From: a virus
Strand: one strand, 5' to 3'
Length of the DNA stretch: 27,396 bases
IMG/VR virus record: IMGVR_UViG_3300034092_002812
Span: 1-27,396 of that record
Under the pieces are notes generated by a model. The model had not been told where the DNA came from, searched no databases, and saw only the letters and a program-made list of their open reading frames with translations. Shown piece by piece: positions 1-12,369 of the stretch (positions are counted from its first letter, which is position 1; each line of letters starts with the position of its first letter). The translations under genes and the position numbers were made by a program.

Positions 1-410
1 TTGGCACATGTTTATGGTCTTCTATTGAATCTGGCTTTAATTCATCTTTCGGAATAACAACAAACAACTCGCTATTTGGGTGGGGGTATAACCGTAATGG
101 GCCTATATGTAACACGAATTGCACTTGTTTTTCAACTCCCTCTCAGATAGCAGGTGCATGGAAATGTGTTGCTGTAGGATCTGCAGGGACGATCTCAAGA
201 TTTGCAAGTATTAGTGCTACTGTTGATACCTGTATCGCAGTTGCGCGTGGATCTGGATATCGCTTTTGCGATTTATATGACCCTGTTCAGGCTATGATTA
301 CATCAGCCAATAAACTTTGTTTACAGGCGAATATGGATGCTGGGAGTTGCTCCTGGTCGTGGTCAAAAATCAGTATAGGCGGTGATACAATAGCAGGTAT
401 AAGGTATTGA
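1..410 (+). CDS. RCC1-repeat-like, Cys-rich protein, C-terminal part (5' end outside window)
   Basis: An open frame runs from the window edge (first full codon at base 3) to TGA at 408-410, about 135 residues, so the start lies upstream. The visible part contains a motif of the form SLFGWGYNRNG, followed by a Ser-Thr-Pro turn and an AGAWKCVAVG stretch. This is the pattern of RCC1-type beta-propeller blades (W-G-x-N-x-x-G, then P-x-x-x-x-x-x-W-x-x-V-x-x-G). At least nine cysteines are present, including a C-N-T-N-C-T-C cluster, which is unusual for a phage structural protein and could mean disulfides or metal binding. RCC1-like proteins in phages are of unknown role; its position before the surface-glycan and fibre genes suggests a virion or adhesion protein. 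The coding frame is clear; the RCC1 call rests on one good blade. Confidence 0.6.
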   Translation, partial: GTCLWSSIESGFNSSFGITTNNSLFGWGYNRNGPICNTNCTCFSTPSQIAGAWKCVAVGSAGTISRFASISATVDTCIAVARGSGYRFCDLYDPVQAMITSANKLCLQANMDAGSCSWSWSKISIGGDTIAGIRY

Positions 411-445: not shown

Positions 446-1483
446 ATGCACTTAATAGATCAGCAGCTTAATATGATGTTGCGCGGTAGATTTGATGATG
501 GGTGGTCGATAAGTGAGAAACTTGAAGAAACAGAACCATCAAATCTACGACATATGTTTAATCGTGGATGGCTCTTAATATATAAAGGCTTCTTTCAAGA
601 GGGTTATAAATGTCTTGAAGCAGGTAGACTTTTAAATGTATATGGAAACAACCGTATTCCGACGGAACAGCCTATTTGGAATCACGAAGATCTCCACGGT
701 AAGACCGTGTTATTGAACATGGAAGGTGGTCTCGGTGATCAAATCATATATATTCGTTTTGTAAAAGATATAAAGAGGCTCGGTGCTAGATGTATTGTGT
801 GCTGCTCCTCGTCATTAATACCTCTCTTCTCCTCAATAGAGGGGATAGATGAAATCATCGACTATACCGATATACCTTTAATTAATTTTGATTTTTGGAT
901 ACCGTCGTTTAGTTGTTCGTGGCTCTTTGGATACTCTCATCACGATTTACCTAACGATCCATATATAAAACCCATGGATATCAATACAGCTGTATGGAGC
1001 CAAGCTGTGATAAGTGACAAAATAAAGGTAGGAATAAGATGGAGTGGTAGTACTCAATTTGAACATCAGCAATTTAGAATCTTTCCGCCGGAGAAACTAA
1101 TTAATTTATACCACAATACACAACTACAGCTATACAGTTTTCAGCGTGATAATGATGTTATAGAACTCCCTGATAAAATATTTGATTTACAATATCTTTT
1201 AATTTCATGGATAGATACTGCAGCAGCTATAGCAAATATGGATTTAGTAATAACCTCATGTACAAGCGTAGCACACTTAGCATCAGCAATGGGAAAACCG
1301 ACATGGGTTATTGTTCCAATCTTACCGTATCATATTTGGGCGTATGAAGGCGAATACACACCGTGGTACAAAAAAACCACACGAATCTTCCGTCAGACCG
1401 TATTTGGTGAATGGGATGATGTATTTGAAAAAATACAACACGAATTAACACGAGTAATAAAAGGCGAAGTGAGCTTGATTTAG
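446..1483 (+). CDS. GT9/heptosyltransferase-like glycosyltransferase with TPR-like N-terminus
   Basis: The 345-aa product looks like a TPR-fused GT-B glycosyltransferase of the ADP-heptose:LPS heptosyltransferase (GT9) type. Residues 1-75 are helical and TPR-like (FNRGWLLIYKGFFQEGYKCL). Residues 90-105 carry the Gly-rich donor-domain loop NMEGGLGDQIIYIRF. Residues 195-202 read VGIRWSGS, the start of the second Rossmann domain. Residues 266-285 hold DLVITSCTSVAHLASAMGKP, which matches the C-terminal nucleotide-sugar-binding region of this family. The ATG at 446 follows a short gap from the preceding stop; no Shine-Dalgarno is seen, but TATAATAG ends 5 nt upstream. It precedes a sulfotransferase and a second related gene, so it probably transfers a sugar onto a surface glycan or virion protein. 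Donor and acceptor cannot be told from sequence. Confidence 0.75.
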   Translation: MHLIDQQLNMMLRGRFDDGWSISEKLEETEPSNLRHMFNRGWLLIYKGFFQEGYKCLEAGRLLNVYGNNRIPTEQPIWNHEDLHGKTVLLNMEGGLGDQIIYIRFVKDIKRLGARCIVCCSSSLIPLFSSIEGIDEIIDYTDIPLINFDFWIPSFSCSWLFGYSHHDLPNDPYIKPMDINTAVWSQAVISDKIKVGIRWSGSTQFEHQQFRIFPPEKLINLYHNTQLQLYSFQRDNDVIELPDKIFDLQYLLISWIDTAAAIANMDLVITSCTSVAHLASAMGKPTWVIVPILPYHIWAYEGEYTPWYKKTTRIFRQTVFGEWDDVFEKIQHELTRVIKGEVSLI

Positions 1484-1511
1484 AGATATATTTCATATAT
1501 AATTATTGTTA

Positions 1512-2297
1512 ATGAAAACAATACATTTTGTCGCCGGCCTACCACGTAGTGGTTCAACGATGATGATGAATATTTTAAAACAAAATCCGCATGTCGGTGC
1601 GGCACCGGTGAGCTCATTATGTACAGTTATAAACGCAGTTAACATTAACTGGGAGAGTGTGGAGGCGAATAGAGAGTACCCTAATGATACTGCTAAGATA
1701 GACACACTTACGTCAATTTTGCAAGGATACCATAAATCTTCGAAAAAAGATATTATCTTTGATAAAGATAGATTGTGGGTAACGAAGATTGGTTTGATAG
1801 AAAATATTATTCAAGCTAAAATAAAGATTTTATGTCCTGTTCGTAACCCTGCAGAAATTATAACGTCATTTGAAAGAATTCGAAGAAATAATCCACTACG
1901 GATTATAGGAGGCGATAGCGGTATTTCAAATGTATCAACTCGGGCTCTATATTACTCTGCTCCTGACGGTGTACTCGGTTTGTCGCATGCAGCTCATAAG
2001 GATGCTGTTATAGAAGGGTATCTAGATAGACTTTTATTTGTAGATTACAATAAATTTTGTAATACCCCTAAGTCTCAGTTAAAGCGTATTTATGAGTTTT
2101 TTGAGTTACCTAAATTTGAGCATAATATGGAAAGTATTGTTCAAAATGAACAGTATAATGATCACGCAACCGGTCATCCAGGGTTACATAAAATTAAAAA
2201 TAGACTAGAACGCACTACTGTTAACTGTGTTCAGTTTTTAGGACTTGAGTTATATGAACAATACAATAGAGAAATCTTCTGGGATGCCTGGGTATAA
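1512..2297 (+). CDS. PAPS-dependent sulfotransferase
   Basis: The 261-aa product begins MKTIHFVAGLPRSGSTMMMN. GLPRSGST (residues 9-16) is the 5'-phosphosulfate-binding loop of sulfotransferases, equivalent to a P-loop. The 3'-phosphate-binding signature follows as PVRNPAEIITSFERIRR, with Arg111 and Ser119 at the canonical R-x7-S spacing. The family moves sulfate from PAPS onto hydroxyl or amino groups of carbohydrates, proteins or small molecules. The ATG at 1512 is preferred over an in-frame TTG at 1506 because the conserved beta-strand starts right after it. The 3' end overlaps the next gene. It sits between two related glycosyltransferase-like genes, suggesting a sulfated glycan product. 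The enzyme would depend on host PAPS, since no ATP sulfurylase or APS kinase is in the window. Confidence 0.85.
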   Translation: MKTIHFVAGLPRSGSTMMMNILKQNPHVGAAPVSSLCTVINAVNINWESVEANREYPNDTAKIDTLTSILQGYHKSSKKDIIFDKDRLWVTKIGLIENIIQAKIKILCPVRNPAEIITSFERIRRNNPLRIIGGDSGISNVSTRALYYSAPDGVLGLSHAAHKDAVIEGYLDRLLFVDYNKFCNTPKSQLKRIYEFFELPKFEHNMESIVQNEQYNDHATGHPGLHKIKNRLERTTVNCVQFLGLELYEQYNREIFWDAWV

Positions 2298-3507
2298 AGA
2301 TGAGCCAATAGATGTTTATTTTGATGTAATAGCTAAGTCGCTATATCAAAATAAAAGATTTGGTGATGCTGCTGCAATACTGGATATTGCAAGTAAATAT
2401 GTGCAACCTAGCAATGTTTATTCTGTGCTAACAAGTGCAAGAGAATGCTATTTTCTAAGCGGTGACGTTGTTACTGCATATAATATTTTATTGTATCAAG
2501 AACAGTTCATACCGTCTAATAACACAAACAATGTTTACGATAAAATTATATATCTCCGTTATCTCGGTAAATATGAAGAGTGTGAACATGTCATTAAAAC
2601 ACAAGCATCGGGTGAGATAAAGTATCGTGCTCTCGGGTGGTTTTCACATAAAAAAGGTGATTTCAAAGAAGCTTTTCTGTTGACAGAAAAAGGAAGAAAT
2701 GGTAAGTATCGATTTAATTCGAATGTAAAAAACCCTTACCCTATCTGGGATGGTAAGACAATATGTGATAATATTGTAGTTTTTGCAGAAACAGGATGTG
2801 GCAATGAAATTATCTTTTCACGTTGGTTAAAAGATCTACAGCCGTATTGTACGAATATATATTATTGTACAGCAACTTCACTCTCAATGGTTTTTGAGCG
2901 TGTCTTTGGTGTAAAATCATATACAAGCAACACCACGCTACCTGGTGATACACGGTTTATACCGATGATGAGCTTACCCTATCTTCTCGATAAGGATAAT
3001 ATTGAAAATCGCACCTATTTAACATCCAATAATGAACATATTTCTCAGTATCTACCGAAATCCCGACCAAGAATAGGCATACAGTTAACAGGTGATTTAA
3101 ATTACACAGAGAACAATCATAGAACAATACCTGAAAGTATTTTTATTGATACGTTTAAATTATTCGGTGAACTTGTTAATATAGGATCTAATTACATGGA
3201 GGAGCGAAAAGATGTGACGTATTATATGAATGACACCTGGGAAGAAACCCTTGCATTAATTGATACATGTGATGTTATTGTTACATGTTGTACAAGTATA
3301 GCACACGCAGCTGGTGCATTAGGTAAGAAAACCGTGGTATTATGTAACATGGCAGATTATTTTACATGGTGCTCGACACCACATTTAGGAATGTCGCCTT
3401 GGTATGAGAATGTTTGGTGTGTTAGACAGCAGCAGCCTGGTAATTGGAGCGATGCTATAGATCAAGCTGCCACTATTGTCAGTGATATTATCGCTACTAA
3501 TAGTTAG
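2254..3507 (+). CDS. Second GT9-like glycosyltransferase paralogue with TPR-like N-terminus
   Basis: The roughly 417-aa product has a helical, TPR-like N-terminal region of about 150 residues, then a GT-B-like region clearly related to the gene at 446. It shares a Pro-x-x-Trp-Asp-Gly segment, a loop reading FAETGCGNEIIFSRWLKDL in place of NMEGGLGDQIIYIRFVKDI, IGIQLTGD in place of VGIRWSGS, and VTCCTSIAHAAGALGKKT in place of ITSCTSVAHLASAMGKPT. The catalytic-domain loop is degenerate (TGCGNE versus GGLGDQ), so it may use another donor or be a partner subunit. The start is uncertain: an in-frame TTG at 2245, ATG at 2254 (AGGA about 10 nt upstream) and ATG at 2284 are possible, and all overlap the sulfotransferase 3' end. 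That overlap implies translational coupling. Confidence 0.7.
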   Translation: MNNTIEKSSGMPGYKDEPIDVYFDVIAKSLYQNKRFGDAAAILDIASKYVQPSNVYSVLTSARECYFLSGDVVTAYNILLYQEQFIPSNNTNNVYDKIIYLRYLGKYEECEHVIKTQASGEIKYRALGWFSHKKGDFKEAFLLTEKGRNGKYRFNSNVKNPYPIWDGKTICDNIVVFAETGCGNEIIFSRWLKDLQPYCTNIYYCTATSLSMVFERVFGVKSYTSNTTLPGDTRFIPMMSLPYLLDKDNIENRTYLTSNNEHISQYLPKSRPRIGIQLTGDLNYTENNHRTIPESIFIDTFKLFGELVNIGSNYMEERKDVTYYMNDTWEETLALIDTCDVIVTCCTSIAHAAGALGKKTVVLCNMADYFTWCSTPHLGMSPWYENVWCVRQQQPGNWSDAIDQAATIVSDIIATNS

Positions 3508-3555: not shown

Positions 3556-5211
3556 GTGAGAAATTATCTAGTAACACTAAGTAGCATTCAACCAAGCGAC
3601 CCACCGCAGGTACTCGACCACTATCTCTTTCTAGATCCTCTTCTTGGTATTAACTTTGTTTATCCAAATTCAGCGAACGGTGGTTTTTTTGTCGGTACAT
3701 CTTATACCGGTGCTCTTACCGCGGATAGCGAAAATATATACCCATGGGGGTACCCTATACAGACAGCTGTCACAAATATAGAGATAGGACCACTCAAAGG
3801 ACCGTATACACTTACCTTTTCACCTACAGGTCTCGACACAAGTAAGGCAGCGATATTGAAGATAATTTATAATTTCGGTGACGGTACTAATACAACTGTT
3901 AATCGTAGTATTGTACCGAAATTCCGAATGGGTGACACACTATCTGCTGGTGATCCAAACGCTATATCTGTTAGCCATGAGTACTACCCTCAAAGTATAG
4001 ATAGTACCACAGTTTATAATCCGATTATTACAGTAATAAACGGTAATATGGTTGAAAACGTTTTTAATATAACTCTTTCTACCGTACCTGCCTCAATTTA
4101 CGACTTTAATAGTACACATCTTATTAGCAACACTCAGCAAAGCAGACTTTCAGAGACACAAAATGTATTTGAGGTAGAGCAGCCTAATTATCTGACTGTA
4201 GCACGTGTTTTAAGTACCACAGACGCAAAATACACAACACCTCCCTTCTTTAGTCCTGAAACACTTGCAGGTTATGAAGATAATTTAATTTTATGGCTTG
4301 ATGCACTAGATGCTTTAACCCTTTCACGTGATCGATACGAAAATGTTCTTATATGGTATGATAAGAGTTCATATCAAAATAACTTTTTCTCTGATATTCC
4401 GAATATACCCGGTGTAGGTGGTGTGGTAGGCACGAGTCCACAATTTCAATATCAAACACAGTCTACTTCACTAAGAAAGAGTGTATTATTTGAGCAGGGT
4501 AAGTATCTATATGCACTAAGCGATTCATTACGCGGTATTAATAGCTTCGATGCCGTGGTGGAAAACAACGGATATACAGTATTTGCGGTAATGAGGCTTA
4601 ATTCTGTAGAGGGTACACTATTTTCTTATGACCTTAATATGAATGAGGAGCTAAACCCAGTTACCGGTGATCAAGGTGATGGTGTGAATTACGTTCCTAA
4701 TTTCAATATCTCATTTAACCAACCTAATGCATTGACTGTTGAGCAGGGTGATACAAGTTATTATTTTAAAACGAGTGCGACTGATGATTCCGGTGGTATA
4801 TATCAACCTACAACTATAAGCAACATATCACAAAACCTTACCGCTTACAGCTTATTTTCTGTAACAGTAAGCGGTACGTTAAACGCACAAGCATATATAA
4901 CAGCTGATACACTGATAGCGCGAAGACGCAATCAAAGCTATCAATACAATCTGAGTAGCTTTTTATCTGGTGGATTTAATAGCAGTACAGTTCTTTACCC
5001 GCCAACCGGGCAATATATAGAACCAGGGACGTATGATAAAAAGTTAGTATACGCGTTACTCGGTAGAAGCAATGCCTATATTGATAGCTACTTAACAGAT
5101 ACCGAGATTTCAGAAATTATAATATATAATAAACCACTTGATCCTGTTTCTATAGCCAATGTACAAAACTATCTTGTTAATAAGTGGAATTTAACACTGC
5201 GAACTGACTAG
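3556..5211 (+). CDS. PKD + LamG-like jelly-roll virion/adhesion protein
   Basis: The 551-aa product uses a GTG start. A PKD-like Ig fold lies at about residues 75-180, with IIYNFGDGTNTTVNR and the later ISVSHEYYPQ matching the W/Y-x-F-G-D-G-T and H-x-Y hallmarks. From about residue 240 comes a concanavalin/LamG-type jelly roll: LILWLDALDALTL, then IWYDKSSYQNN, a VLFEQGKYLYAL strand, and a C-terminal segment IIIYNKPLDPVSIANVQNYL ending in Lys-Trp-Asn. This last motif is typical of LamG_3-type domains in secreted and virion proteins that bind carbohydrates. There is no signal peptide, fitting a virion component. It is the first of a run of five large structural genes and directly follows the glycan-modifying cassette. 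The host ligand is unknown. Confidence 0.7.
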   Translation: MRNYLVTLSSIQPSDPPQVLDHYLFLDPLLGINFVYPNSANGGFFVGTSYTGALTADSENIYPWGYPIQTAVTNIEIGPLKGPYTLTFSPTGLDTSKAAILKIIYNFGDGTNTTVNRSIVPKFRMGDTLSAGDPNAISVSHEYYPQSIDSTTVYNPIITVINGNMVENVFNITLSTVPASIYDFNSTHLISNTQQSRLSETQNVFEVEQPNYLTVARVLSTTDAKYTTPPFFSPETLAGYEDNLILWLDALDALTLSRDRYENVLIWYDKSSYQNNFFSDIPNIPGVGGVVGTSPQFQYQTQSTSLRKSVLFEQGKYLYALSDSLRGINSFDAVVENNGYTVFAVMRLNSVEGTLFSYDLNMNEELNPVTGDQGDGVNYVPNFNISFNQPNALTVEQGDTSYYFKTSATDDSGGIYQPTTISNISQNLTAYSLFSVTVSGTLNAQAYITADTLIARRRNQSYQYNLSSFLSGGFNSSTVLYPPTGQYIEPGTYDKKLVYALLGRSNAYIDSYLTDTEISEIIIYNKPLDPVSIANVQNYLVNKWNLTLRTD

Positions 5212-10521: not shown

Positions 10522-12369
10522 ATGGCTAATACTATTCAAGTTACATCTGACACCGTTGTCAAGCTTCTAATACGACGCGGTACAGACTTTGACCGTAAGA
10601 ATGTAGTTCTATCGCAAGGCGAGCTAGGTTTTACAACAGACACTGAGAGACTATTTGCTGGCAACGGTGTTACACTTGGAGGTGTTATTGTTGGTAACAA
10701 ATCTACTGTTACAAATGCAGGTAAAGAGACTATATCCAACCCATTTCCCGGTGATTCGGTATTTGAAACTCAAAATACTGACGGTGCGCCTACCAATTTA
10801 TTATATATACTAAATAAGGACAATCTCTGGGTAAATGCACACCCTGTTTACGGTTCACCGTTTAGTTATACAACGGGTGAATTGCTCTTTAATTCACAGT
10901 ATCTAACACTCGATACGGCTAAATCTATTTTAAACTTAAATGTAGATCTCTATACTGCTAATTTAAGTAGTAATCAAACATTTGTTTACGAATTACCAAG
11001 AAGAGGTATTAATGCAACAAATAAAACCTACGTTGATACGCTAGTAAGTGTAGCTACAGCAGGTGATCAGCTATATACTAGGAATTACGTTGGTAATAAC
11101 TACGTACCCCTCAGCGGGGAAGCAACTGTATTCGGTACAATTAGCAGTACTACAAATATAACTGTACCTACATTACCTGTTCATGATAATGATCTGACAA
11201 ACAAGGTGTACGTTGATACAGAAATAAGCACATCCTCAAACGCCGACAGAACATTTGTCGGTAATAGGTATCTTCCTCTATCAGGTGGTACATTAACTAA
11301 TTCTGTTACTGCTGTCGTTCAAAGAAACAACGCGGCAGCGCTTCATATTAGACAATTAGGAACCGCACCGGCTCTAAGAATTGATAATACCAATACTCTT
11401 AACGCTAACCAGCCGGCATTTATAGTAGACAACTACGGTAGTTTAGGTATTGGTATGACACCTGTACCAGGCAGCTCAACAAGACTAACTGTCGTTGGTA
11501 ATGTTAGCGCTACAGGTAATATCAATACAGACAGCAATCTCTATACAGGTGGCCGTGTTGGTGTTGGTACTCTTACACCGACACAACAGCTTGATGTCAT
11601 CGGTTACATTAAATCTACAGGCGTTGAGTCAGGTATTCGTATCGGAACGTCAGACTCAGGTTCTACAGGTCAATTTTCTGTCGATGGACAGAATACATAT
11701 CTTGATTATTCCGCAAGTTTATTAATACGCAATGGTAGTGATTTTTCAGAAAAAATCCGCGTAACCGGTGATGGTAAAATTGGTGTTGGTGGTATAGAGC
11801 CAGTGACTAATCTACAGATTAACGATCCTGCAGGAGCGAGAGTGCGAGTAAGCGGTGCGAATGGCTCAGCTTTTGAACTTAATGATGCAAATACTCGAAT
11901 TGGTATACCCGCTACAAATACACTAGCTCTTTATACATCTAACAATGAGCGCGCTAGAATTGATCTGAATGGTAATGTTGGTATAGGTACATCGTCACCG
12001 GCTGCAAAACTAGATGTTAATGGCAATACACGTATAACTGGTACCCTTACAACGACAGGTGATATTAATGCAGGTGGTGACGTTACGGCGTTTACAACAT
12101 CTGATGAGCGTTTAAAGAATAATATTACCCCGATATCCAGTGCTTTAGAGAAAATAGATCGAATCACCGGTGTTGAATACGATTGGAATACCGAATTACA
12201 GTCAAATCGCACTGGACACGATGTCGGTGTGCTTGCACAAGAAATAGAGGCGATTATCCCAGAAGCTGTTACAACACGTGAAGATGGCTACAAAGCAGTA
12301 AATTACGAAAAAATCATACCTCTCTTAATTCAAGCTATTAAGGAATTAAAGGCTAATACTACAAAATAA
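10522..12369 (+). CDS. Tail fibre protein with C-terminal S74 intramolecular chaperone
   Basis: The 615-aa product starts with a segment seen in many phage fibre and adhesin proteins: RRGTDFDRKNVVLSQGELGF, then an LFAGNGVTLGG turn. The middle has fibre repeats (NKTYVDTLVS and NKVYVDTEIS, each followed by a YVPLSG or YLPLSG turn) and repeated G-N-V-S-A-T-G and V-G-I-G-T-S-S-P strands typical of trimeric beta-helices. Residues about 526-615 form the Peptidase_S74 domain: TSDERLKNNITPI, GVEYDW, VGVLAQEIEAIIPEAV, VNYEKIIPLLIQAIKEL. In known members this domain drives trimerisation and then cleaves itself at the Ser of the S-D-E-R-L-K motif (Ser527 here). It should be a receptor-contacting fibre. 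Confidence 0.88.
   Translation: MANTIQVTSDTVVKLLIRRGTDFDRKNVVLSQGELGFTTDTERLFAGNGVTLGGVIVGNKSTVTNAGKETISNPFPGDSVFETQNTDGAPTNLLYILNKDNLWVNAHPVYGSPFSYTTGELLFNSQYLTLDTAKSILNLNVDLYTANLSSNQTFVYELPRRGINATNKTYVDTLVSVATAGDQLYTRNYVGNNYVPLSGEATVFGTISSTTNITVPTLPVHDNDLTNKVYVDTEISTSSNADRTFVGNRYLPLSGGTLTNSVTAVVQRNNAAALHIRQLGTAPALRIDNTNTLNANQPAFIVDNYGSLGIGMTPVPGSSTRLTVVGNVSATGNINTDSNLYTGGRVGVGTLTPTQQLDVIGYIKSTGVESGIRIGTSDSGSTGQFSVDGQNTYLDYSASLLIRNGSDFSEKIRVTGDGKIGVGGIEPVTNLQINDPAGARVRVSGANGSAFELNDANTRIGIPATNTLALYTSNNERARIDLNGNVGIGTSSPAAKLDVNGNTRITGTLTTTGDINAGGDVTAFTTSDERLKNNITPISSALEKIDRITGVEYDWNTELQSNRTGHDVGVLAQEIEAIIPEAVTTREDGYKAVNYEKIIPLLIQAIKELKANTTK

Follow-up and report, generated by a model that had tools for sequence, protein, structure and literature searches.

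Glycosyltransferases of families GT9 and GT25 classically act on LPS, of which ADP-heptose is a precursor, and glycosylated phage virions are known. The heptosylation of proteins by GT9 enzymes is likewise of an already known kind: TibC heptosylates a repeat-rich adhesin, and the BAHT enzymes carry as their hallmark a four-cysteine iron-finger near the C-terminus (PMC4358343). Among sulfotransferases, the catalytic residues of the tyrosylprotein enzymes (TPSTs) are R79, E100, K159 and S286 (PMC5562738). For phage genomes, the function of sulfotransferases has been called unclear (PMC10580990). In the open-access literature covered, we found no earlier description of a linked GT9-sulfotransferase/RCC1 module, of phage RCC1 adhesins or of virion sulfation.

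The 27,396 nucleotides of DNA analysed here, hereafter the window, are part of the genome of a freshwater T4-like phage and hold an exonuclease gene, an S74 tail fibre and, on the minus strand, gp6-like and gp25-like baseplate genes. Three genes running in the same direction encode a first glycosyltransferase (GT9a), a sulfotransferase (ST) and a second glycosyltransferase (GT9b); they are preceded by the end of an adhesin gene and followed by fibre/adhesin-like genes (Table 1), so that the initial annotation was right in placing the cassette before a fibre/adhesin block. Counted from the ATG starts, GT9a and ST are separated by a 28-base gap and ST and GT9b overlap by 44 bases. T4-type late-promoter motifs precede two structural genes, and none was found upstream of GT9a. 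Adjoining the exonuclease, a short protein encoded at 17398-17754 matches phrog_858 (phage starvation-inducible, Dps-like regulator). As for the host, psbA (PF00124) is absent from the 23 related records searched, hence a cyanobacterial host is unsupported for most of them.

Table 1. Coordinates of the cassette and of neighbouring adhesin and fibre genes in the window
Feature	Coordinates	Strand	Length and start	Evidence or remark
RCC1-repeat tail adhesin	3..410	+		C-terminal end only, truncated by the window start; RCC1_2 above Pfam cut-off
GT9a ORF	446-1483	+	345 aa, ATG start	
ST ORF	1512-2297	+	261 aa from ATG; alternative TTG at 1506	
GT9b ORF	2245-3507	+	420 aa from TTG; likely ATG start 2254	
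Structural/adhesin protein after the cassette	3556..5211	+	551 aa	phrog_10356 virion structural protein, short match, E 2e-4
Tail fibre	10522..12369	+		Mtd_N + S74 chaperone domain

The first glycosyltransferase had been called GT9-like, and its predicted fold bears this out, although both GT9a (14.4 bits) and GT9b (12.9 bits) score below the curated cut-off of 22 of the Pfam GT9 family (PF01075). Single-sequence scans with the two proteins gave few relatives, an alignment-based scan at least 525. Since a profile search with GT9a against PDB sequences yielded chance matches only, a fold search was needed. The AF2 model of GT9a, built with 31 relatives as input (pLDDT 89.3), has TPR-like helices followed by a glycosyltransferase domain (residues 72-345) that aligns in VIA-align with a Veillonella GT9 protein (3tov; Z 18.0), WaaF (17.3), TibC (16.2) and WaaC (15.9). 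The first non-GT9 fold appears at Z 12.5, except for the glycosyltransferase-like subunits of the plant NDH complex (14.4-15.4). Judged by this model, the fold of GT9a is that of a GT9 heptosyltransferase.

With the LPS heptosyltransferases WaaC and WaaF, GT9a shares the fold (Z 16-17) and a Gly-Asp motif after the first strand; the catalytic aspartate of WaaC, D13, is located there. GT9a differs from these enzymes in its fused TPR-like helices, in having no linkage to LPS genes and in having a cysteine where they have an aspartate before the donor-site threonine. Residues D98, R211 and H277 are invariant across the 31 relatives, with D98 likened to the catalytic D110 of TibC by motif only. 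Cys272 is invariant as well, and because it replaces what is presumably the donor-binding aspartate of heptosyltransferases, the sugar transferred by GT9a may not be heptose. TibC and AAH, the BAHT enzymes associated with the adhesins TibA and AIDA-I, resemble GT9a in their GT9 heptosyltransferase fold, in being soluble and in the linkage of their genes to a repeat-rich adhesin. GT9a differs from them in that it is paired with a sulfotransferase or a methyltransferase and has a phage RCC1 propeller as its putative target; its N-terminus is TPR-like, whereas that of TibC is a beta-barrel. Furthermore, residues 273-345 of GT9a contain no cysteine in the C-terminal region that holds the iron-finger of TibC. 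An identity of GT9a as a BAHT was rejected, as this cluster of four cysteines is missing.

The second gene is the PAPS sulfotransferase that the initial annotation had recognised. It matches Pfam Sulfotransfer_3 (PF13469) at E 7e-13 (49.7 bits, cut-off 27) and carries both PAPS motifs, GLPRSGST and R111-x7-S119, whose residues G9, L10, P11, R12, G14, R111 and S119 are invariant in an alignment of 34 relatives; family score, 5'-PSB motif and 3'-PB motif are all those of the PAPS-dependent sulfotransferase superfamily. In a fold comparison of its AF2 model (34 relatives as input, pLDDT 89), the top seven rows are all TPSTs, with TPST1/2 aligned over the full length at Z 18.2-18.7, followed by a curacin/olefin-synthase sulfotransferase (15.3), heparan 3-OST (14.6) and SULT (12.9). 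TPST1/2 are also the best sequence-profile matches (E 8e-6 for TPST1). Of the TPST active-site residues, Arg79 corresponds to the invariant R12 and Lys159 to the mostly conserved K85, whereas Glu100 aligns with the non-acidic V33. Since two of these counterparts are present and the third is absent, we describe ST as a PAPS-dependent sulfotransferase with a TPST-like modelled fold, which may act on sugar or on protein. It also differs from TPST1/2 in being phage-encoded and paired with a glycosyltransferase.

This resemblance brings up the alternative that ST sulfates protein directly, on tyrosines of the adhesin or of another tail protein as TPST or the bacterial RaxST do, in parallel to glycosylation by GT9. 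The lead of TPST1/2 of about 3 Z units over all other sulfotransferases, the profile match and the shared arginine and lysine argue for such an activity, but the catalytic glutamate has no acidic counterpart, the RCC1 proteins associated with the glycosyltransferase are poor in tyrosine (median 1.7%) and rich in serine and threonine, and ST is fused to or adjoins a glycosyltransferase, which suggests the product of the latter as its target. On balance, we regard direct protein sulfation as unlikely. The earlier proposal of a phage-encoded glycan- and sulfate-modifying unit thus holds as regards the unit, and is weaker as regards sulfate being placed on the glycan, given a fold nearest to the tyrosylprotein sulfotransferases.

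Sulfotransferases of the same family are present in the cyanophages S-SKS1, S-SRM01 and S-SCSM1 and in OM43-phage metagenomic sequences, to which ST is only 22-32% identical. Those of S-SKS1 and S-SRM01 also adjoin beta-propeller adhesin genes; unlike ST, these cyanophage and OM43-phage enzymes have no strict GT9 neighbour. The ST profile was also run against 84,980 species genomes of bacteria and archaea, in a scan that rests on two short peptide patterns and that relatives lacking these patterns could escape. The single relative found is a GT9-ST fusion; it lies together with RCC1 genes on a contig of a Nomurabacteria MAG, and this is probably a misplaced phage contig.

The linkage of the cassette was examined in IMG/VR from both ends, with loci chosen either by ST similarity alone or by the GT profile alone. 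In the first set (42 loci after dereplication at 95%), the gene immediately 5' of ST is GT9 in 40 cases, with gaps mostly from -14 to +113 bases; one of the remaining two is cut by the contig edge and the other has a single gene between GT9 and ST. RCC1 is immediately 5' of GT9 in 32/42, and most of the others are cut. The second set comprises 80 loci among the matches listed, which are not dereplicated and are in part shared with the first; an RCC1 gene is present in all 80 and immediately 5' of GT9 in 78, and in L130 and L144 RCC1 is on the opposite, downstream side of the cassette. Among the same listed matches, single-domain GT9 has ST as the next gene in 52 of 52 uncut loci. The long GT9 proteins (26 loci, again among the matches listed) are fused to the methyltransferase MT2 in 24 cases and to ST in two, and no free ST follows them. 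A further GT9-ST fusion is present in L084, and in the cultured cyanophage BUCT-ZZ01, whose host is the laboratory strain S. elongatus PCC 7942, RCC1 is followed by a GT9-methyltransferase fusion. The cassette is under strong purifying selection (dN/dS about 0.05-0.1, median 0.05-0.09) and its linkage is kept across many divergent contigs, which excludes chance as the cause. In the podovirus ctDrO704 (L089:3625-8852), a TPR-GT9 gene lies shortly 3' of the major capsid gene, accompanied by genes for an FkbM methyltransferase and a GalT-like protein; capsids may be modified along similar lines.

The three genes had been proposed to form a unit, with their synteny in related genomes as the check. 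The link between the first two is borne out by the 40/42 dereplicated loci and by the fusions, whereas the third gene is not fixed. GT9b is, as had been stated, related to GT9a: it is a second TPR/GT9-like protein of GT-B type (24% identity, BLASTP E 3e-27, hhalign probability 99.8%), and by sequence the two are paralogues. At the putative catalytic aspartate position, GT9b has an asparagine (GCGNEII), where the other 11 of 12 aligned glycosyltransferases keep the aspartate; it may be inactive, regulatory or of altered chemistry. A second GT9 copy is found only in some relatives, for example L043, L047, L053 and L067, usually with at least one gene intervening. Given this sporadic occurrence, the frequent separation by other genes and the asparagine of the window copy, the cassette is a two-gene core of GT9a and ST with GT9b as an optional paralogue.

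The adhesin fragment at the window start forms the C-terminal end of an RCC1-repeat beta-propeller protein of 1,091 aa, which is present as a whole at L009:1624-4899 (contig 3300020550_000015), where the cassette proteins are identical to those of the window. RCC1 proteins at GT-associated loci contain about 26% serine plus threonine, compared with 13-15% in RCC1 proteins from Clostridioides and Brevibacillus phages, taken as controls, and 21-22% in those of two filamentous-cyanobacterium phages. RCC1 genes were found too in phages with no detectable GT homologue. In farther marine relatives (AG-345-E08, AG-345-O18, S-SKS1), the neighbours of ST are 2OG oxygenases and beta-propellers of the Kelch-like or RCC1 kind; as the flanking propellers include Kelch-like ones, the link to propeller adhesins reaches beyond RCC1. 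The locus of AG-345-E08 (L083:1398-12337) encodes three RCC1 proteins, several 2OG-Fe(II) oxygenase-like proteins, GT9, a sulfotransferase and GT25, an arrangement which suggests hydroxylation of a tail protein before its glycosylation as a role of cyanophage 2OG oxygenases. In Aphanizomenon phage Yong-DA (L088:1751-6706), genes for SAM and FkbM methyltransferases and for a sugar transferase flank that of an RCC1-like protein annotated as dockerin.

These data bear on the target, for which the virion and the infected cell had both been considered. If the cassette enzymes remodelled the surface polysaccharide of the infected host (LPS core or O-antigen), they might exclude superinfection or aid release, and such a role would agree with LPS as the classic GT9 and GT25 target and with ADP-heptose as its precursor. 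However, none of the 17 cassette families examined for hydropathy gave a candidate membrane protein, GT9 is strictly paired with an adhesin gene in the GT-selected loci among the matches listed (RCC1 in 80/80, directly upstream in 78/80), and the TPR-GT9 gene of ctDrO704 again neighbours a virion gene. The virion is hence the favoured target, and remodelling of the host surface appears improbable.

The genes around the core vary among relatives. Downstream of it, the 42 ST-selected loci encode the SAM methyltransferases MT2 (40/42) and FkbM (26/42), and GT2/GT25 enzymes and 2OG-Fe(II) oxygenases also occur in relatives. Some of a set of HldE-kinase-, HldE-adenylyltransferase- and HldD-like proteins and a cupin are present in 10/42, the HldE/HldD-like scores being under the NCBIfam curated cut-offs. 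At L024:9631-11848 and L007:6037-8597, HldE-adenylyltransferase-, HldE-kinase-, cupin- and HldD-like genes stand in a row, with shortened kinase domains; ADP-heptose synthesis is a possible function of such rows. In 16/42 loci, a few genes 3' of ST, an APS-kinase-like domain is fused to a nucleotidyltransferase. All 15 of 15 members match PF01583, and the profile match to the solved APS kinase 2yvu has an E of 7.8e-6; the second domain (L015:8151-9008 and 34 homologues) is an NMNAT-like HxGH nucleotidyltransferase. The layout resembles that of PAPS synthase, but with a different second domain. Altogether, the accessory genes of relatives, at modest family scores, suggest a supply of ADP-heptose and PAPS; within the window fragment, no ADP-heptose or APS-kinase genes were found. 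That the cassette sits in a variable tail region gathering glycan-related genes and serves unrelated targets, for instance small molecules or nucleotides, is most improbable: downstream content does vary (methyltransferases, oxygenases, GT25, heptose genes), yet the RCC1-GT9(-ST) core is invariant amid changing neighbours and contains domain fusions.

We thus propose, as the probable but by no means certain reading, that a soluble phage module O-glycosylates the RCC1 tail adhesin by means of GT9a and caps the glycan with sulfate by means of ST or, in sister lineages, with methyl. Glycosylation of the adhesin is favoured because of the RCC1-GT9-ST linkage, the fusions, the TibC-type fold, the Ser/Thr-rich RCC1 proteins and the lack of membrane-like families by hydropathy; the adhesin synteny could also reflect a shared exchange hot-spot. 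Late in infection, soluble GT9a would move a sugar, probably of the heptose type and from an ADP donor, onto serines and threonines repeated along the adhesin. ST would then put PAPS-derived sulfate on the glycan made by GT9a, and in sister lineages the methyltransferase fused to the glycosyltransferase would cap the glycan instead. The adhesin would thereby gain a glycan coat, capped and possibly charged, that alters adsorption, stability or recognition.

Tentatively, and at somewhat under an even chance, we consider this a widespread and previously undescribed phage pathway, by which a sulfated or methylated glycan is placed on a beta-propeller tail adhesin, with some genomes bringing their own supply of ADP-heptose and PAPS and possibly hydroxylases that make acceptor sites. 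Sulfotransferases and 2OG-Fe(II) oxygenases of aquatic phages have been reported without a known role; the linkage of RCC1, GT9 and ST or methyltransferase points to the tail adhesin as a concrete target and gives phage sulfotransferases a role that can be tested. If true, the glycosyltransferase and sulfotransferase would be useful as soluble tools for protein glycans, and phages would chemically cap their own adhesins, with effects on adsorption, host range and stability.
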